Source: Prorocentrum cordatum (lineage: Eukaryota > Sar > Dinophyceae > Prorocentrales > Prorocentraceae). Taken from it: 64,000 nucleotides of DNA. The position numbers and the translations under genes were made by a program. Where the stretch lies: contig CAUYUJ010009446.1 of the NCBI GenBank assembly GCA_963575745.1, positions 801,259 to 865,258 of the forward strand, written 5' to 3'. Under the pieces are notes generated by a model. It was given only the letters and a program-made list of their open reading frames with translations, did not search any database and was not told where the DNA came from. The first letter of the stretch is position 1. Every line of letters begins with the position of its first letter. Shown in pieces: positions 4,232-35,775 of this stretch.

Positions 4232-4392
4232 GCAGGAGCAGGTCGAAGAAGCCAGGTCACCCCCAGGGGCGCGAAGAGAATGGCGCTATGCGCATCGGGA
4301 CTTGGGTTGGAGAGCTGCCCTTTTCCATGGCGGCGGCACGAGGGCGCGAAGATAACCGCGCGTCGCAGGGCGCGATACTCGAAGCTCGATTA
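4232..4392. repeat. Dispersed repeat, copy 1 (pair with 12541-12690)
   Basis: This segment aligns by eye with 12541-12690. Shared blocks include CCAGGTCAC, CTTGGGTTGGAGAG, GGCGGCGG, GATAACCGCGC/GGTAACCGCGC and GGGCGCGAT. Divergence is high but the order of blocks is kept. It lies just upstream of a MITE-like element, and both families occur again elsewhere in the window. Confidence 0.5.
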
Positions 4393-4454: not shown

Positions 4455-4657
4455 CGTCAGAAGCTTTGCCTTGGTGTGTCGCGCCGCCGGTTCTAGCGCC
4501 ACACGCTTCGGCGCGACTCTTTTGCCCCCAAACGTCCACGTCCCGAGCCTTTCCCAGCCTCCCCTCCCCGCGGAGCGGAGCGACACGCTATCCGCTTGCA
4601 GGGCATAGCGTGTCACCGGGGCCGCCGTCGCGACACGGTAAGCAAGCGCTTCCGACG
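4455..4657. mobile_element. MITE-like element, copy 1
   Basis: This is an ~203-bp element whose two ends are inverted copies of each other. The left end reads CGTCAGAAGCTTTGCC, then GTGTCGCG; the right end, reverse complemented, reads CGTCGGAAGCGCTTGC, then GTGTCGCG. It matches 7642-7847 along its whole length: shared CGCCGGTTCT, GTCCACGT, TTTCCCAG, CCGCGGAG and GCGACACGCTA blocks. It has no coding capacity. No clear target-site duplication is visible. Terminal inverted repeats, small size and two copies suggest a non-autonomous DNA transposon. Confidence 0.6.
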
Positions 4658-16689: not shown

Positions 16690-16848
16690 GAGCCCCTGGG
16701 GCCGGGACTTCCCTGCGATGTTTTGCCCCCCCTCCCTCTGGGCAGGTTTCCTGGAGGCCCCCGTGGCTCCTGGACCGCCCAAAGTGCTCCAAGAGCGCCC
16801 AGGATGGCCTCCAGACCGCCCAAACGCCCCAAGAGAGCCCCAAGACCG
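16690..16848. repeat. CCCCAAGA-rich satellite, left remnant
   Basis: Degenerate words such as CCAAGAGCGCCCAGG, CTCCAGACCGCCC and AAGAGAGCCCCAAGACCG. The same satellite resumes at 18468, directly after the retrocopy insertion, so this is the left part of one interrupted array. Confidence 0.6.
16832..16848. repeat. Target-site duplication, left copy
   Basis: AGAGAGCCCCAAGACCG ends at the base before the spliced leader and is repeated exactly at 18468-18484 after the A-rich tract. The host sequence is repetitive, so chance identity must be weighed. The exact fit to both ends of the insertion supports a true duplication. Confidence 0.75.
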
Positions 16849-16870
16849 TCCGTAGCCATTTTGGCTCAAG
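16849..16870 (+). other. DinoSL spliced leader, full match
   Basis: All 22 positions of the known dinoflagellate spliced leader are present, with T at the variable first base; the sequence starts TCCGTAGCC and ends TTTTGGCTCAAG. The leader is added to messages by trans-splicing, so finding it in the genome directly upstream of a coding sequence marks a retroposed mRNA. It is not followed by a donor GT and is not an SL RNA gene. Confidence 0.95.
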
Positions 16871-16915
16871 ACGTGTCGGCTGAGCATCGACACCGGTGTA
16901 GGTCTGGCAGCGCAG

Positions 16916-17974
16916 ATGGGTAGCGGTTGGTCGGCCAAAGCTGTCGAAATGGATGACGGCGTGAAGGTATTCTGGAGTGGGCATCTTACCAAGGGACACG
17001 CTGACAGGCGGCATGCGTGGCTTCATGAGTACTCCGAGGCCCAGCTGGCGATTAAGGCCTCCATGCCGCCTTTCAACAACGCGAACAAGATGGATGTGCC
17101 TGCGTTCGTAGAACAGTTCAATGTTCCCACTTTTGGGCCAAACATCGCCAATTCGGTCATGCGTATCTTTTCGACTGAAGCGATTCTGCGCGTTGCCAAA
17201 CAGCTCGGCGTCGTGATTCCAACTTACGTGCTTAGCACCTTCGTCCAGGATAAGATGGTGAAAGTGCACGACATGATCAGGTACGCTCGACAAACCGCCG
17301 CGATCGCCGATAAGAACGCGGGCGCCATCGACCAGCTTGAGAGGTTTGTGCAAGCGTTCAAGGCGCTCGATGGCAAATCGGTCCCCGACGTTGCCTCCTG
17401 GCAGGCGTTTGTCCTGGAGCACGTGCCAGCAGGGTGGGAGTCGAGGCTCCATTTCGACCACCTGCTCGAGAACTTCGGCTTCGCAAAGGAGGCCTCCGAC
17501 GAGCTGAGGGCAGCGCAGTTCGTGAAGGAGGACGGGGAGACTGTAACGTTTGAGTAGCACGCTTATCGTTGGCTCAGCAAGGCCTTCTCCGCGTATGGCC
17601 CTAAAGGAGCGCTCACGGACGTGGTCAACTTGGTGTTCGCCATGTCTGGCGCTTCTGCTAAAGGTCTCAGCGACTTGGACGTCGCCAGGCAGATCGACCA
17701 GTTCACCAGCAAGGTCATGGCCGGAGACTTGAAGGGCCTGTGGGTTCCGAACAAGTTCTTCATGGACTGCGAGGTGGACGACTGCATGTGCTGGGCGCTC
17801 CTTCAGTACATCCACGAGACGAGGGGCACGACCCTCCACGTCCTGGCGCAGATGCCGCCCGACAAGGAGCTGGACGTGCTGGAGAAGCGCTGGGCGCAGC
17901 TGCCGGGCTGCGAGGTCTGGCGGGACCCCGACTCCCGCAACGCCAAGGCGATCAGGACTGGCCACGGCATTTGA
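16916..17974 (+). pseudogene. Retroposed gene of unknown function, one in-frame stop
   Basis: Starts at the first ATG after the leader. One reading frame covers 352 residues, interrupted by a single TAG at 17555-17557 (codon 214). The frame continues without shift to TGA at 17972-17974. I do not recognise the family. The first ~210 residues are predicted soluble and helical, with no signal peptide or membrane segment visible. After the stop, residues 283-291 read MDCEVDDCM. This loosely resembles the DxDxGxDD metal and ribose site of nucleoside hydrolases, with a hydrophobic strand before and an alternating strand (LHVLAQ) after it. That link is weak. It is either a retropseudogene with a nonsense mutation or a readthrough gene. 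The lack of frameshifts suggests a young copy. Confidence 0.7.
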
Positions 17975-18449
17975 GTGAGGCCTCGCGCCGGTCGCCATGA
18001 AGGGCCGGTCCCAGTGGAAGACCCCCGGCCCAGGACCCGTCTCTTTCAGGACCCCCTCCCTTCGGGCCAAGGCGGAGCAAAGTAGGATTCACAGCTGAAT
18101 CATGGGGCCAGACGCACGCGCGCACACAAGGCGGCCGCAGCACACCTCGGCTGCGCACGCCGCCCAGAGCCAACGCGAACAGACTCCCACATTTGATTCG
18201 GGGTCACTGCGCTCTGCCAACGACTGATCTTCTGGTCGCGCCGACGACCAAGGAGTCCGTGGGGGGCTCATCTGCATGTGTGATAAGCCTGCACCTTGCA
18301 CCCCTCTTCTGCTCGGTGAGCAGCTCCGCGCCATCCTCCTCTCTCGTCCGTCCTCTGTCCTGCGTTCCTCGTCTTCCTCGCCCCTCTCCTCGGCCCCCGC
18401 CCGACATAGCTCGATGACGTCTGTACTGGAGATCGCCTGCCTCACAACA

Positions 18450-18465
18450 AGAAAACCAAAAAAAA
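18450..18465 (+). other. A-rich tract, probable relic poly(A) tail
   Basis: AGAAAACCAAAAAAAA closes the retrocopy and is followed, after two G, by the right target-site duplication. Its place between coding sequence and duplication is what a poly(A) tail would leave. Confidence 0.7.
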
Positions 18466-18467
18466 GG

Positions 18468-18484
18468 AGAGAGCCCCAAGACCG
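18468..18484. repeat. Target-site duplication, right copy
   Basis: AGAGAGCCCCAAGACCG, identical over 17 bases to 16832-16848. Confidence 0.75.
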
Positions 18485-26037: not shown

Positions 26038-28365
26038 GTGAGGGTCGTCCAGGGCACAGCAGGCATGGCATATTCTCGACACCGTAGGGGGTGCGCAGGG
26101 GGTGGTTTCTCACCGCGGCCGCTATCCGTGACGGTCGTCCAGGGCATAGCAGGCAGGGCATATTCTCGACACCAGAGGGGGTGCGCAGGGGGTGGTCTCT
26201 CACCGCGGCCGCTATCCGTGACGGTCGTCCAAGGCACAGCAGGCATGGCATATTCTCGACACCATAGTGGTCTCTCACGCTATCCGTGACGGGTGGCCTC
26301 TCACCGCAGGGGCGCTATCCGTCGTCCAGGGAGCAGGCATTCTCGCATAGGGGGTGCGCAGGGGGTGGTCTCTCACCGCGGCCGCTATCCGTGACGGTCG
26401 TCCAGGGCACAGCAGGCATGGCATATTCTCGACACCATAGGGGGTGCGCAGGGGGTGGTCTCTCACCGCGGCCGCTATCCGTGACGGTCGTCCAGGGCAC
26501 AGCAGGCATGGCATATTCTCGACACCATAGGGGGTGCGCAGGGGGTGGTCTCTCACCGCGGCCGCTATCCGTGACGGTCGTCCAGGGCACAGCAGGCATG
26601 GCATATTCTCGACACCATAGGGGGTGCGCAGGGGGTGGTCTCTCACCGCGGCCGCTATCCGTGACGGTCGTCCAGGGCACAGCAGGCATGGCATATTCTC
26701 GACACCATAGGGGGTGCGCAGGGGGTGGTCTCTCACCGCGGCCGCTATCCGTGACGGTCGTCCAGGGCACAGCAGGCATGGCATATTCTCGACACCATAG
26801 GGGGTGCGCAGGGGGTGGTCTCTCACCGCGGCCGCTATCCGTGACGGTCGTCCAGGGCACAGCAGGCATGGGCATATTCTCGACACCATAGGGGGTGCGC
26901 AGGGGGTGGTCTCTCACCGCGGCCGCTATCCGTGACGGTCGTCCAGGGCACAGCAGGCATGGCATATTCTCGACACCATAAGGGGGTGCGCAGGGGGTGG
27001 TCTCTCACCGCGGCCGCTATCCGTGACGGTCGTCCAGGGCACAGCAGGCATGGCATATTCTCGACACCATAGGGGGTGCGCAGGGGGTGGTCTCTCACCG
27101 CGGCCGCTATCGTGACGGTCGTCCAGGGCACAGCAGGCATGGCATATTCTCGACACCATAGGGAGTGCGCAGGGGGTGGTCACCACCGTGCCGGTTCGGT
27201 CGCAGGGCACAGCAGGCATGGCATATTCTCGACACCATAGGGGTGCGCGTCTCTCACCGCGGCCGCTATCCGTGGTCGTCCAGGGCACAGGCATGGCATA
27301 TTCTCGACACCATAGGGGGTGCGCAGGGGGTGGTCTCTCACCGCGGCCGCTATCCGTGACGGTCGTCCAGGGCACAGCAGGCATGGCATATTCTCGACAC
27401 CAGAGGGGGCGCGGGGGGTCTCTCACGCGGCCGCTATCCGTGACGGTCGTCCACAGCAGCATGGCATATTCTCGACACCATAGGGGGTGCGCAGGGGTGG
27501 TCTCTCACCGCGGCCGCTATCCGTGACGGTCGTCCAGGGCACAGCAGGCATGGCATATTCTCGACACCATAGGGGGTGCGCAGGGGGTGGTCTCTCACCG
27601 CGGCCGCTATCCGTGACGGTCGTCCAGGGCACAGCAGGCATGGCATATTCTCGACACCATAGGGGGTGCGCAGGGGGTGGTCTCTCACCGCGGCCGCTAT
27701 CCGTGACGGTCGTCCAGGGCACAGCAGGCATGGCATATTCTCGACACCATAGGGGGTGCGCAGGGGGTGGTCTCTCACCGCGGCCGCTATCCGTGACGGT
27801 CGTCCAGGGCACAGCAGGCATGGCATATTCTCGACACCATAGGGGGTGCGCAGGGGTGGTCTCTCACCGCGGCCGCTATCCGTGACGGTCGTCCAGGGCA
27901 CAGCAGGCATGGCATATTCTCGACACCATAGGGGGTGCGCAGGGGGTGGTCTCTCACCGCGGCCGCTATCCGTGACGGTCGTCCAGGGCACAGCAGGCAT
28001 GGCATATTCTCGACACCATAAGGGGGTGCGCAGGGGATGGTCTCTCACCGCGGCCGCTATCCGTGACGGTTGTCCAGGGCACAGCAGGCATGGCATATTA
28101 TCGGCACCATAGGGGGTGCGCAGGGGGTGGTCTCTCACCGCGGCTGCTATCGGTGACGGTCGTCCAGGGCACAGCAGGCATGGCAGATTCTCGACACCAT
28201 AGGGAGTGCGCAGGGGGTGGTCTCTCACCGCGGCCGCTATCCGTGACGGTCGTCCAGGGCGCAGCAGGCATGGCATATTCTCGACACCATAAGGGGGTGC
28301 GCAGGGGGTGGTCTCTCACCGCGGCCGCTATCCGTGACGGTCGTCCAGGGCACAGCGGTATCGGC
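26038..28365. repeat. 90-bp satellite, about 25 copies
   Basis: The unit is exactly 90 bases over long stretches, e.g. starts at 26459, 26549, 26639. It contains TCTCACCGCGGCCGCTATCC, GTGACGGTCGTCCAGGGC and GCATATTCTCGACACCATAG. Most copies in 26350-27100 and 27530-28000 are identical, pointing to recent homogenisation. Two zones (26265-26345 and 27170-27480) are full of small deletions. Since 90 is a multiple of three, all frames repeat 30 codons and stay open on both strands. This explains the long frames and is not evidence of a protein. Confidence 0.95.
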
Positions 28366-29564: not shown

Positions 29565-29925
29565 AGGAGAATGTGGAGAAAGAGGAGGAGGAGGAGGAGG
29601 AGGAGGAGGAGGAGGAGAGGAGGAGGAGGAGGAGGGAGGAGGAGGAGGAGGAGGAGGAGAGGAGGAGGGAGGAGAGGAGGAGGAGGAGGAGGGAGGAGGA
29701 CAGGAGGGAGGGGGAGGAGGGGAAGGAGGGAGGGGAGGAGGATGATGGACGACAGTGGGAGGACGATGATGGAGGCCGATGAGGGTGTGGACGACAATGG
29801 GAGGGCGATGATGGAAGGACGAGGGGGGAAGAGGGAGGACGAGGAAGAGGAGGAGGAGGACGAGGTGGAGGAGAAGGATGACGATGACGATGACGATGAG
29901 GACGAGGACGAGGAAGAGGAGGAGG
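29565..29925. repeat. GGA/GAG tract
   Basis: (GGA)n with GAC variants toward the right end. Its last bases form the target site of the LINE insertion that follows. Confidence 0.9.
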
Positions 29926-29942
29926 AGGAGGAGAGCGCCATC
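29926..29942. repeat. LINE target-site duplication, left copy
   Basis: AGGAGGAGAGCGCCATC, identical over 17 bases to 34925-34941. It abuts the spliced leader exactly. Confidence 0.9.
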
Positions 29943-29979
29943 TCCGTAGCCATTTTGGCTCAAGCCATTTTGGCTCAAG
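29943..29979 (+). other. DinoSL plus relict DinoSL in tandem
   Basis: A full 22-base leader (29943-29964, T at the variable first base) is followed at once by CCATTTTGGCTCAAG (29965-29979). This is the leader minus its first seven bases. The cut falls right after the internal TAG of the leader, as expected if a new leader was trans-spliced onto an AG inside an older genomic leader. This pattern is known from recycled processed cDNAs of dinoflagellates. It implies at least two rounds of transcription, trans-splicing and reinsertion. Confidence 0.95.
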
Positions 29980-30127
29980 GCCATTGCCCGAAGCCACCCT
30001 CTCTCGTTCGCGAGGGTGTACTCGGTTAGGGCCCCAGTCTGCCCGCAGGAGGGCGCCATTTTCTCGGCCGGAGGCCGAGAGCACTTCCACATGTGTTCTC
30101 CCGTCCGCCAGCCCTGCTGGCCCTGCA

Positions 30128-31140
30128 ATGAGCGGTGCTGCCTCTGCCGCCTCGCTCGATGGCCTCGCTCAGGAGTGGGAACTGGCGAGCACCTTCCCCA
30201 CGCAGGAGGCTGCCGCCGTCGCCGCTGCTGAAGATGCCGCGAAACGGCAACGCATCGCACACGCTGTTGCCCCCGAAGACGCTGCTAGCCTCAAGGAGTA
30301 CGTGGACACCACCAAGAAGAGCTTGCTCGCTGCCCTGGCCAACATCCAGAACTCGGTGGCCACGCTCACGAACACCTTCACAAGCAGCTGGAATGACATC
30401 GACAAGAGAATCGAGGCGCGGCTCAACGGCGTGGAATGCCGCCAGTCTGCCCAAGAAGCCCGCATCGACGTCCTCGAAGGCCAGATCCGATCGCTCACGG
30501 AGACCCTCGGCGACATCAAGGCCGCTCGCCCCGCTCTTCCTGCTGCTGCTCCTGGCTTCAATCGTAATACCGACCCGACCATCCTTCTGCTTCGCACCAA
30601 GCTGTCCTGCGCCAAAGCTGGAGTTCTTGCGGCGCTCTCCGGTTGGCTCGGCCGTGCCCAGCTCAACGAGCTGACTTCTCTATGGAAGGAGAACCGGTCT
30701 CCAACAGATACATCCTACGGATCAATGGATCGATCCCCTATGCCTCTCGGAAAGTCCAGCAGGCCCTCGGCGCTCTTCGTCGACACGACCAGACATGGGA
30801 GCGCTTCCAGTGCCAGGCCCCCGACAACTCCATGCAGGAGATATTCATCTCTGGCGACAAGAACGTGGCCCAGGTCAAGAGAGAGCTCGGCCTCAAACGT
30901 GTTCGCCGCGAGCTGGAACTCCACTACGGACACCTGCGCTTCTACAGTGACAAAGACAAGGGTGAGATCTCGTGCCAGTGGGAGCCGCTTGTTCATGTGG
31001 AACCACAGGCGGGAGAAGCACCGCCCAAGCTCTCGTTCTGCCTCGCCAACCTCAACGCTCTCGGGATTGACAAGTCCAAGATCCTTGATGGCGTCATGGC
31101 TGGCTTCAAGTCCGCAAGTGAGACGACGTGGAGTGTTTAG
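30128..31140 (+). pseudogene. LINE ORF1 protein (one frameshift)
   Basis: The first ATG after the leader starts a ~337-residue protein ending in TAG at 31138-31140. Residues ~55-135 form a probable coiled coil (DTTKKSLLAALANIQNSV, EARIDVLEGQIRSLTETL), the trimerisation type of region usual in ORF1. After a Pro/Ala linker there is a basic domain with KLSCAKAGVLAALSGWL. Following a frame change near 30672 come SMEGEPVSNRYILRI, ASRKVQQALGALRR and NVAQVKRELGLKRVRRELE. The order is that of an RNA-binding fold and basic helix in dinoflagellate LINE ORF1. ORF1 coats element RNA and aids strand exchange at the target. The frameshift would truncate it; whether it is real cannot be told here. Confidence 0.7.
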
Positions 31141-34100
31141 CCCGCTACTGGCGAAGTGGACTGATCCGCACGGCTCCCCGACCCCTCTCTCGCTGGTCAC
31201 ATGGAACGCCCAGGCGCTGGTCCACTGCAAGGCCACCATCCGCTCCAGGAAGCTCGCTCTCGCGCGCTCGCTGTGGAAGACAGGATCGATCATCTCGATC
31301 CAGGAGACCCACGGCGCGATGATTGAGTTGCAGGACTTCGCCTACTTCTCCAACTCCGCCTTCTCTTTCGCCTCTTCGTTCTGCCCTAACATCCGAGCAG
31401 GAGGAGTCGTTACCCTGTGCCCCAACTTCGAACGTCTTCCGATTCGGCCTCATTTAGTTCAAAAGAATGTCCTGGTTCCAGGACGAGTTTTGGAGCTCTT
31501 CTTCGGTTTCTCCGAGGGCATCTGGATATCACATTTTAATGTTCACCTCCATGGGCTTTCGGTGGGAGAACGGCACCTCGTTGCTCAGGCTCTTCGGGCT
31601 CGTCTTGCTGATGCCGCCTCTTCGCCCACTACTAGGCTGGTTATCGCGGCTGGAGATTTGAATCTGGCCGACTCGGCCCCGCGCCCGCTGGACGCAGACC
31701 CCTCCATTGACCCGCTAGATACCCTTCGAGATTGGCGCGCTTCCAGGGACGCGATTTTTAGCCCAGTTTTCAGCTCCATGACGGAAATCGAGACCCCAGA
31801 CCCCGCCCACTACAACAGCGCGCTGGGAACCCTGAACACCATTGATCGGATCTTCGTGAGCTTTCTTGGGTGGGTCTGCAACCAGCTGTTTACTAGCGGC
31901 CAGGTCAGTAAGATCCCAGAGGTCCTCCACGCCCAGGGCCTCTCAGACCGCGCGCCGCTCGTGGTCAGCCTCGCTGGTAGTCCTCCGATCCCGTCTGGCG
32001 AACGCCCCATCCCGAAACATGTTTTCCTCCAGCCCGAGCACAAGGAATACCTCAGTTATGTTGGGGCCCTGGGAGATACTAGCCACCTCTCCCCGCCTCT
32101 TCTCCTCCAGTACCAGACGAGGATCATGAGGGAGGCTGCGTCTGTTGCTAGGAACGCCATGATTGTGAAGCGCCCCGAGTCGATAGATACCAAGTTTTTG
32201 ATAGTCAAGAGCATCAGTCGAGCGGTTTGGAGACAGGATATCATATTAGCAGAACGACTCAGAGCGTCACACTTCCTGGCCCGTCAGTACTTGGACATTG
32301 ACGTCCTCGCCCGCACGGTGACCCTCCTGCGCGTGTTTGAATTCTTGCAGGTCTCTTCCGAGCTCCACAGAAGTATCTCTGAACGCGAGCAGGCTGAGAT
32401 CAGGGCCAGCCTGACGAGGGTGCACTCAGAGAACCAGAAGCGGAAGCTCAAGAGAAGACTCTGCGCTGTGATTCAGCGCAGTCGCTTATGGAGTCCATTT
32501 GACCGCCGAGTTTCTCTTCGTGGCGTGCGCTGCGGGGGTGGTGTCTGCACGGAGCCTGGAAAAATGATGGAAGTATTATCTCAGCATTGGTCCTCCGTAT
32601 TCTCGAACAAGCAGATCGACTCCAAGAGCGCCCAGAGGTACCTCTACTGTTTCGGCGTCTCCCCTGACCTGATGAACTTGCCCCCTCCTTCCCTTCGCTC
32701 CGTGAAGAAATACATCCAGTGCCTTGAGCACTCGGCCCCTGGCCCCGACGGGCCCCCGTTCGCTGCTTGGCAAGGGCACCCTGAAGGCTTTCTGATACTC
32801 GACAAAATGACGCGGTGGATTCTCAACGGCAACCCCCCCAATGGCCTCCTTCAATGACCTCCGCAAGGTGTTCATTCCCAAAGGCTCCGAGGCCTCCGAC
32901 GAAGTCGCCATGCATCGGGACCCCAACCAGACTCGCCCCCTCGGCCTCAAAAACGCCTCGAACACGATCATCACGGGAATCGTGTGCCGCGAACTCAGCA
33001 AAACTCTGGATACTTTCATTGCCCCGATACAGCGTGGTTTCGTGGGCGGTCGGAACTTCGGGACCAACATACTCGAGCTAGATACATACTCCAGGGTGTA
33101 CGGCATGCAAATCGTGGACCCTAATGTAGCCATCTTGCACAAGCCTGTTCTTGTCAGTTTCGATTACGGCCAGGCCTTCCCGTCGATTGCGCATGAATGG
33201 CTGCTAATGTGCCTTCGACGTATTCGCATCCCCGCTCCTCTTCTTCCTCGAGATCCTCTACAGTGCTGTCTGGTGCTTCGCATGTACCAACAACGCGCTC
33301 CGCTTCGCCTTCAAGATAGAGAGCGGCATCATCCAGGGCTGCCCCGCGTCAGGCATGATATGCGCCATTGCTTCGAATCCCTTCCTGTCCGGCATCGAGG
33401 CCTCCCTTCGAGCTCGCTCGCGGCCCGGTGCGGATCGCCACCTGGCTCCCCGCGAGAAAGGCATCGCTCGGGCCTGTGCTGATGACGTGGGCGCTGCGCT
33501 TCGTCAACTCGCCGATCTCCGTATTCTGAAGCGGCCCTTTGACCTGAGTCTCCGCATCGCAGGTCTCACCTTGGAGCCATCCAAATGTTTCATTACCCCC
33601 CTGGGAAGCGAGTTCTCACAAGAGCTCAGCGAAACGATCGCGGCTTGGCTGCGTGAGCAGCTTCCAGAGCGGGCCGCGTCCCAGGTTGTGCCGTTTTTGA
33701 CTTACCTCGGTTTGGTGCTTGGTCCTGGGACCGAGAATGAAAGCTGGACTGGACCCACTCGGAAATGGTCTGCCCGAGGCTGCGCCATTGCGCGTGCCAG
33801 ACCTCCAACTGCTGTCGCGCAGTATCTTTATAACAAAAGAGCTGTGCCCACGATCGGATACGTGGCTCAGTTCATTCCCCTTCCCTCGTCGGACCTCGTT
33901 CGGTTGACTCGTTCGGAGCACGCCCTCTTCGCCTCTCTCTTTCGAGTGCCTCACTGCTCCTTCTCCCGCGCTGGCTGGTTCGCCCTTTCCTCCTGGGGCG
34001 GACACTCCGTGAACAGTATTGTTGTTTTATCCTTAGCCTCCCTGATGCGGACTGCTCTGGTGACGCCCCCAGAATGGGAACCGCTTTTTCAGTTTCTCCG

Positions 34101-34896
34101 CGGGACGGCTCTCGATCACCTGTCCCTGCAGGAGATCGGAGAAGGAAAACTCAGCCCGTCTTGGTGGAAATCCCATCCCCTGGTGCAAAATCTCTCCCAG
34201 GCCGCTGCGGGCTTCTCGGGCCACGCCCAATGGGCGCAAGCTGGCTCTCTAGCCTTGCAGTCTGCCCTCGCGTGTCTCAACCCTACGAGCCCTAACAATT
34301 CGGAGCCCAGACCGCCGAAACCGAAAGTCCAGCGTGTGATTTATGCCTCGTTGCAGTGCTCTCTGTTTCCTGACCCCCTCCCCTCGATGTTCTCCTCTCG
34401 CCTCCTGGGCTGGTTTCCCGACCGTCGGGGCGAGATCCAAAATAGCAACTGGACTAAGGTGAAGGCGTGTCTCGCTGCTCTCCCAATAGGCTTCAGCTCG
34501 GCAGTGCTCAAAACTATAGCAGGTGCTTGGGTGACATCAGCTCGCATGCACGACAATTCCCAGCGAGGATGCATGATGGGATGTGGCGGCCCCGACACGT
34601 TCCTGCACTACTGTGCATTTTGCCATGTTTTCCAGTATTTGCTTGCTCTCATCATCCAGCCGCTTCCGTTCCTCGACTCTCCCATTGCTCGTCTCGGCCC
34701 GTGCTCTCCCTGTCGCTCTGATTTCGAGCCCGCTGCTGCTGGTCTTCTTCTCTTCAATGCCGCCACCGCCTCTCGCGCCTCTCAAGCCGATGCTTCCCTG
34801 CCCCTCGCTGGCTGTCACATCTTTGAATTACAGCCTGGTGTGCGATCCGCACTAGCGAGGCTCCGCGTCGCGAGCGCGGGCGCGGGCTCGGAGTAA
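31088..34896 (+). pseudogene. LINE ORF2: AP-like endonuclease and reverse transcriptase
   Basis: ORF2 probably starts at ATG 31088, overlapping the end of ORF1 by 53 bases. The endonuclease motifs come in order: LSLVTWNAQAL (~31190), IQETHG (~31295), GDLNLAD (~31655), NTIDRIF (~31840) and LSDRAPLVV (~31940). In the last, the family's catalytic His is Arg. RT blocks: APGPDG (~32735), VFIPKG (~32867), RGFVGGRN (~33030), FDYGQAFPS (~33158), IIQGCPASG (~33330), ACADD (~33472) and YLGLVLG (~33705). A late Cys/His cluster CMMGCGGPDTFLHYCAFC (~34570) matches the C-terminal zinc knuckle of such elements. Frameshifts at the C7 run 32830-32836 and near 33240 split the RT. The enzyme nicks target DNA and copies element RNA in place. 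Confidence 0.85.
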
Positions 34897-34924
34897 TCGA
34901 CTTGGCGCGCCTCGGCGACGCGCC
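34897..34924 (+). other. LINE 3' end hairpin, no poly(A)
   Basis: The 3' UTR is only 28 bases. TGGCGCG at 34903-34909 pairs with CGCGCCA at 34919-34925 around a 9-base loop. The last A may belong to the duplication. A terminal hairpin in place of poly(A) is typical of LINEs whose RT recognises its own 3' end. That role is inferred. Confidence 0.65.
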
Positions 34925-34941
34925 AGGAGGAGAGCGCCATC
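34925..34941. repeat. LINE target-site duplication, right copy
   Basis: AGGAGGAGAGCGCCATC, identical to 29926-29942. Confidence 0.9.
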
Positions 34942-35104
34942 GACAGGGAAGGTGGGGGCCACGAGGTCTGCCGGCTCGACGACGCCCGCGTCGCCCGCGC
35001 CCGCCCCCTCACTCTTATCCGCAATTGCGGGGTGCTACGGACGTAGGTCCTTCCACTCCCTCGCGTAAATGGTGTTGCCCCGTCAGTCAGACTATATTGC
35101 TGTT

Positions 35105-35775
35105 GCGCCCGCCTTGTCTTGGCGCTGGGAAAAGACACTTCGCCAGAAGGATCCCCACAATGTTGGCGCGTTCGGGCCCTTCAGGCACCCTGGCCGACAC
35201 GCCCTTGTGGGCCAAATGCCACGCCTGCTACATCGCGGTGACCATGGGGGACCGGGCGCTCCGCCTGAGACAACATCACAATCTCGGCGCGAAGGGGCCC
35301 GTGAAACACCCACAGACGTCACCGCTCTGAGTGGCCCAAGTGCCATGCCTGTTTCGTCGCAGTGACAATGGAGCCCTGATAACACGCGCGTTTGCTTTTC
35401 AAAGCGGGCGTTCCGCCTGAGACATCTCCCCAATCTGGGCGCCAAAGGGCCCGCGAAACACTTGTACGATGATAGTCGTCACCCTTTGCCATGTCTGCTA
35501 AATCGCGGTGATCATAAGGCCCTGAATTGACATGCGCCCAGCTTTCCAGAGCTGGCTATTTGCCCGCGACATCCCCACAATCTGGGCGCGAACGGGCCCG
35601 TGAAACACCAATAACCGTCACCTTGTTGTGTGGTCCAAGCGTCATGCCAGATAGGTCGTAGTGACCATGGGGCTCTGAGAAGACATGACATGCTACTTCT
35701 TTCCCAAACTGGCGTTTCGCCTGCGACATCCCCACGATTGAGGCGCGAACGGGCCCGTCACCCTTTTGGGTGGCT
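35105..35775. repeat. ~150-bp tandem repeat, four to five copies
   Basis: Units are marked by (A)CATC(C)CCACAATCTGGGCGCG then AACGGGCCCGTGAAACACC at about 35148, 35272, 35423, 35570 and 35728. Between them lie GCCAAATGCCACGCCTG or GTCCAAGCGTCATGCC, ATCGCGGTGACCATGGGG and GGGCGTTCCGCCTGAGA. Divergence between units is about 15-30% by eye. Confidence 0.75.

Follow-up and report, generated by a model that had tools for sequence, protein, structure and literature searches.

Dinoflagellate genomes reportedly contain processed cDNAs (retrogenes) headed by the dinoflagellate spliced leader (DinoSL), which Slamovits and Keeling are said to have described in 2008. According to the accessible text of PMC3229502, relicts and tandem relicts of the leader are known for such retrogenes; the relict is the remainder of a previous leader whose internal AG, after nucleotide 7, served as acceptor for the next SL. 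Here we analysed a 64-kb stretch of DNA from Prorocentrum cordatum (hereafter the window), in which a LINE beginning exactly at a spliced leader and framed by 17-bp duplications was confirmed. This element resembles the DinoSL retrogenes in having DinoSL at the 5' end of the genomic copy, a relict cut at the internal AG and tandem relicts that count rounds, and like any DinoSL retrocopy it starts at DinoSL or a relict. However, those retrogenes are copies of host mRNAs, whereas the window LINE encodes a reverse transcriptase, has defined duplications, a fixed 3' end and a target preference, and is not the copy of a host gene mRNA with poly(A).

Two other lineages offer comparisons. SL-bearing retrotransposon loci have been reported in flatworms, and in the available parts of PMC12582326 and PMC5832876 the authors suggest that SL trans-spliced transcripts were then integrated; the suggestion comes from partial leaders, with one of the papers also naming assembly chimeras. 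The family described here differs from the flatworm loci in its full SL, its duplications, its relicts and its repeated copies, and it belongs to a different lineage. Trypanosome L1Tc is likewise a LINE in a host with SL trans-spliced mRNAs, but in the excerpts of PMC4748587 and PMC8190864 it is described as having its own Pr77 promoter, an HDV-like ribozyme and unspliced transcripts. Insertion into simple repeats is shared with microsatellite-targeting non-LTR retrotransposons; in the accessible part of PMC4640811 target specificity is mostly tied to restriction-like endonucleases, whereas the P. cordatum family shows an APE-type endonuclease match and starts at the SL. Within the dinoflagellates, the LINEs of Symbiodiniaceae are presented in the available text of PMC8045281 as likely remnants of an ancient expansion, and the reverse transcriptase behind mRNA retroposition is called unknown in the consulted portion of PMC6050394, with Ty1/copia favoured. 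No account of a dinoflagellate LINE starting at DinoSL was found in the literature searched, which consisted mostly of papers outside subscription, represented by listings and parts of their text.

The insert is bounded by two exact copies of the 17-mer AGGAGGAGAGCGCCATC, at 29926-29942 and 34925-34941 (plus strand), which occurs in exactly two places within the 64-kb window. A previous sequence-only reading had placed the left copy against the first base of a DinoSL and the right copy against the 3' end of the LINE, and both junctions proved exact. On the left, 0 bases separate the repeat from the DinoSL TCCGTAGCCATTTTGGCTCAAG (29943-29964), the junction falling at 29942/29943; on the right, the LINE 3' end, ...GACGCGCC, has its last base at 34924 and directly abuts the repeat (34924/34925). 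Immediately 3' of the full DinoSL lies a truncated second SL, CCATTTTGGCTCAAG (15 nt, 29965-29979), which matches DinoSL nucleotides 8-22 exactly and follows the AG truncation rule given in the text available from PMC3229502. This relict was left by an earlier round, so that an SL was added at least twice in the ancestry of the window copy. A 5' untranslated region common to the family copies follows (29980-30127, defined by genome matches and copy alignment). At the other end, the terminal segment (34897-34924) extends 28 nt past the ORF2 stop without poly(A). The 17-mers are the only direct repeats at the ends of the LINE, and no LTRs are present.

Several other features of the window were considered. 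A second, decayed relict at 29981-29993 is not claimed, as approximately 4-5% of background segments align equally well, and a 19-bp repeat at 4476 and 7658 was rejected as a target-site duplication because its flanks, too, consist of repeat sequence. None of 200 shuffles folded as well as the first 130 nt of the LINE (29943-30072; z -3.1), whose SL is partly palindromic; a hairpin at the LINE 3' end was no better than shuffles. The repeat units of a tandem array at 26156-28356 share stretches of perfect identity as long as 363 bp.

One could suppose that the SL precedes the LINE as a chance neighbour, as part of an SL RNA gene or through an assembly join, given that assembly errors are common in repeats and that one flank is a GGA repeat. 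The window contains 2 full SLs, compared with 0 in 100 dinucleotide shuffles. Among its 63,988 junctions there are 388 at which a maximal repeat (15 nt or longer, partner 0.5-8 kb downstream) ends on its right side. Of these 388 repeat words, 56 are present exactly twice in the window, and both SL junctions fall among the 56, each with 17 bp. The duplications at both SL junctions speak against chance or misassembly, as does the recurrence of the same SL-LINE junction in all 20 further copies examined, which lie on contigs other than that of the window. An SL RNA gene is countered by the CC that follows the window SL in place of a GT splice donor. We therefore regard this explanation as having a practically negligible chance of being correct.

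As reference for the coding content we used P0002, a P. cordatum protein whose gene model omits parts of the endonuclease region. ORF1 (30128-31140, plus strand) is 94-95% identical to P0002 and shows a frame change relative to it near 30670, and the same comparison places frame changes in ORF2 (31088-34896, plus strand) near 32840 and 33230; the ORF2 start at 31088 is a guess. ORF2 carries endonuclease motifs at 31196-31960, reverse transcriptase motifs at 32934-33723, with the catalytic ADD motif present as CADD at 33475, and a CCHC motif at 34570-34623. Pieces of ORF2 matched Pfam PF03372 (Exo_endo_phos, E 1.9e-4, slightly under the curated score) and PF00078 (RVT_1, E 2.2e-4 and 0.049, both under the curated score), and the relative P0001 matched RVT_1 above the Pfam curated score. 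With an APE-type endonuclease match upstream of the reverse transcriptase, no LTRs and target-site duplications of variable length (17-18 bp in 8 of 10 copies, see below), the element is classed as an APE-type LINE (non-LTR retrotransposon). Its endonuclease motif SDH is altered to SDR (31943-31951); SDH was kept in 5 of 66 proteins, those in which both other endonuclease motifs were found, and P0006 also has SDR. The three frame changes and the altered motif indicate a damaged copy, and the earlier description of this copy as autonomous was not borne out, its frames being broken.

A profile search retrieved 65 proteins, mostly metagenomic, with Heterocapsa, Karenia and P. cordatum among the named sources. 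No peptides from the SL reading frame were present among the 66 proteins, and IMG/VR yielded no confirmed relatives of ORF2 and none of the tandem SL. The predicted structure of P0001 (mean pLDDT 87) gave human LINE-1 ORF2p as the top Foldseek match (E 6.4e-15), with R2 close behind, and its modelled reverse transcriptase core and C-terminal architecture appear to resemble the solved structures of both, whose known mechanism is target-primed reverse transcription. Sequence similarity to these two is low, and unlike them the window family starts at an SL and targets GGA tracts. The structure search does not tell LINE clades (L1, R1, I and others) apart; in the VIA table for P0001, from which the absence of a fold is no evidence, other reverse transcriptases tie with human LINE-1 ORF2p and R2. 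The ORF1 model (mean pLDDT 40) was too poor for use.

When positions 29980-30700 were searched against the P. cordatum genome (4.13 Gb), matches were obtained at 37 places, the window included: 17 longer ones starting at query base 1, 12 short ones also from base 1 and 8 starting later. We examined 20 other 5' ends, corresponding to the 16 other longer matches and 4 of the 12 short ones; outside this sample were 8 short and 8 later-starting matches, one of the latter being the second piece of an examined copy. One family copy, a 93% match, lies on contig C18173. As the sequence-only reading had anticipated for independent insertions, a DinoSL headed all 20 ends. A single SL was exact in 12 copies (L054, L056, L057, L058, L060, L062, L063, L065, L066, L067, L071 and L072), carried one mismatch in L064, L068 and L069 and two in L073, and was truncated to the 15-nt form in L070. 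The tandem arrangement of SL and relict was seen in L055, L061 and, with one mismatch, L059, which together with the window gives 4 of 21 copies, the other 17 lacking a full relict.

The sequence upstream of the SL was purine-rich. At least 21 purines were counted in the 24 bases before the SL in 19 of the 20 copies, with 20 in L056, against 2.0% of 52,430 sampled background 24-mers. In the window copy the count at this position is only 19 of 24, as the duplication extends beyond the tract, and the 24 bases preceding the duplication are GA-rich. Shared non-SL sequence upstream of the element would have contradicted the sequence-only reading, and it was sought by a 13-mer comparison of 21 upstream flanks. 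Non-GGA sequence was common only to L065 and L067, a pair that fits one insertion later duplicated.

For the 3' ends, 10 of the 16 longer copies were sampled at the expected positions, one of them reading N. The last base was identical to that of the window copy in 9 of 9 readable copies, and the right flank started with AGGAG in 8 of the 9 and with AAGGAG in L054. Duplications of 17-18 bp with at most one mismatch were found in 8 of 10 own flank pairs (the window, L056, L057, L058, L059, L061, L062 and L063), 5 of them exact, in agreement with the expectation of duplications near 17 bp in other insertions. L060 showed a 9-bp duplication only, and L054 an uninformative repeat. Among 90 mismatched flank pairs used as a control, 3 were exact over at least 16 bp, and the GGA tracts blur the lengths of the duplications. 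L056 and L057 have a common right flank and are probably one insertion seen twice. Together with L065/L067 this makes two pairs in which a single insertion was apparently sampled twice, and the copies therefore cannot all be counted as independent.

The end products, namely a fixed 3' end, a full SL and a 17-18-bp duplication starting AGGAG, show that the template was an SL-spliced RNA with a fixed 3' end, that reverse transcription reached the first base of the leader, and that a GGA tract was cut with a stagger of 17-18 bp. The original proposal that the inserted RNA was the mature trans-spliced transcript is supported by the sequence of the copies, with an SL at 20 of 20 other 5' ends and an SL plus relict in 4 of 21, and the latter shows that trans-spliced RNA served as template repeatedly. 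We thus consider it very probable that the window element is a damaged member of a LINE family whose insertion into GGA-rich tracts proceeds by target-primed reverse transcription, with an SL trans-spliced mRNA as template. In such a cycle, a LINE copy would be transcribed from outside or from some promoter. The host would then splice on a DinoSL, using one of two acceptors: the internal AG of the old SL, which leaves the 15-nt relict seen in the tandem copies, or the AAG at the end of the old SL, which gives the exact replacement to which the single-SL copies point. As in LINE biochemistry, ORF2p would nick a GGA tract in its pyrimidine strand, and the RNA would be copied from its fixed 3' end to the first base of the leader. 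Every new copy would thereby start with a restored leader and with a splice acceptor already in place, and in this sense the host leader may solve the 5'-end problem of the LINE. The family may still be active today.

The SL could alternatively be an encoded part of the element, with a promoter at or just before the SL starting transcripts at its first base and trans-splicing occurring only occasionally. The 17 of 21 copies without a full relict agree with this, as single-SL copies could also arise from transcription starting at the SL, and the TTT(G) of a retroposed SL is proposed as a possible promoter in the accessible portion of PMC6050394. Nevertheless, in 4 of 21 copies (the window, L055, L059 and L061) a transcript that already bore an SL received a new one by splicing. 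The transcripts behind these tandems began upstream of the old SL, as transcription from the SL cannot give tandems. In addition, the flanks are unrelated GGA tracts with no common promoter-like sequence except in the one duplicated pair. An encoded SL is thus rather unlikely. A self-cleaving ribozyme like those of R2 or trypanosome L1Tc is extremely unlikely to define the 5' end, with the SL added on top. Such LINEs do exist (PMC4748587 and PMC8190864, in their available parts), but no Rfam ribozyme was matched over 29701-35220 at E up to 5, the sole match there being a weak antisense microRNA model (Rfam covers known ribozymes), and no common sequence upstream of the SL could hold a cleavage site.

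A second SL-headed insert in the window (16832-18484, plus strand) is mRNA-like. This processed cDNA has a 17-bp duplication (16832-16848 and 18468-18484), a DinoSL at 16849-16870, an A-rich 3' end and one in-frame stop. Two further SL-headed inserts were found elsewhere: L033 (1,319 bp, A-rich end, 14-bp duplication) and L038 (6,593 bp, A run, 14-bp duplication, with a weak RNase H match inside), the latter possibly an A-tailed SL-LINE. Integrases usually leave duplications of 4-6 bp. LINE-type insertion appears to fit these three inserts better than an integrase, and the same kind of machinery plausibly made the cDNA at 16832-18484. As the window LINE has no poly(A) and the cDNA is A-rich at its 3' end, one enzyme for both is no more than a possibility; an A-tailed SL-LINE such as L038 would suit poly(A) mRNAs better than the window LINE. 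These observations bear on whether SL-headed copies were made by the enzyme of an LTR element of the Ty1/copia type. This type is favoured for dinoflagellate retroposition in the consulted text of PMC6050394, and Oxyrrhis ESTs with retrotransposon hits all matched Ty1/copia in the available part of PMC3942190. Against it stand the 17-18-bp duplications, the GGA target and the fixed 3' end beside a LINE-type ORF2, as well as the 17 bp at the processed cDNA, and we hold it to be very unlikely. Eight LTR-like or other ORFs in the window gave no Pfam match, and no copia element is claimed.

DinoSLs were also noticed in metagenomic contigs. An AT-rich, giant-virus-like IMG/VR contig (L001) contains two full DinoSLs on the minus strand (2746-2766 and 2893-2913), the second immediately preceding an approximately 1-kb segment (42-51% G+C) that resembles a captured dinoflagellate cDNA. 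L003 holds a eukaryotic rDNA unit that had been assigned to a Dehalococcoidia MAG. The spacer of this unit contains a DinoSL (4334-4354, minus strand) with GTACGC and AATTTTTTGG after it, the latter presumably an Sm site, an arrangement as in an SL RNA gene. In L002 (31-52) the DinoSL follows a TCA repeat near the end of a bacterial MAG contig, probably through a chimeric join.

The SL 21-mer occurs 14,218 times in the P. cordatum genome, and its reversed control 0 times. A full relict directly follows the SL in 1,202 of the 14,218. Twelve purines precede the SL in 1,371 cases (9.6%) and twelve pyrimidines in 4,110 (28.9%), each compared with 1.0% of window 12-mers; among 30 SL loci, 7 flanks were polypurine and 15 polypyrimidine. 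The 4,110 pyrimidine-flanked DinoSLs mostly follow a TCC repeat in the places listed, and a LINE ORF2 is present at some of these loci. Further families may insert into the GGA/TCC repeat on its other strand. To sample these SLs, 20 loci with 8.4-9.8 kb downstream were taken in listing order, 17 on contig C1 and 3 on C2, with L004 excluded; duplications within pure TCC tracts are uninformative and none was counted. LINE-protein (ORF2) matches lay downstream of the SL in sense orientation at 7 of 20 loci and in antisense at 0 of 20. The ORFs of 7 of the 13 remaining loci were given to Pfam. RNase H matches 3-6.5 kb downstream were obtained for L038, L042 and L045 (C1, E 8e-5 to 7e-4) and an RVT_1 match at the same distance for L050 (C1, E 4e-5), all under the curated scores, and neither domain was detected in L035, L048 and L053. 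The four loci with matches are perhaps further SL-LINE families. Hence 7 of 20, perhaps 11 of 20, SLs in this small sample from two contigs head a retroelement, and any figure for the whole genome would be extrapolated from it.

Taken further, several P. cordatum LINE families with GGA/TCC tracts as targets would regularly regenerate their 5' ends by host SL trans-splicing and be responsible for much, perhaps the majority, of the 14,218 DinoSLs, with LINE reverse transcriptases as the source of dinoflagellate mRNA retroposition. We give this wider proposal an even chance of being right; if it is true, the SL-tagged "retrogenes" counted elsewhere may include many LINEs. An SL in genomic DNA is in any case not, alone, proof of a retrogene. 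The presence of an SL-headed LINE and an SL-headed cDNA, both with 17-bp duplications, makes a LINE route for mRNA retroposition directly testable. The family itself combines a 5' end apparently supplied by the host, a countable record of trans-splicing rounds and a GGA-tract target, and an SL-headed LINE is relevant to the way in which copies of host mRNAs accumulate in dinoflagellate genomes.
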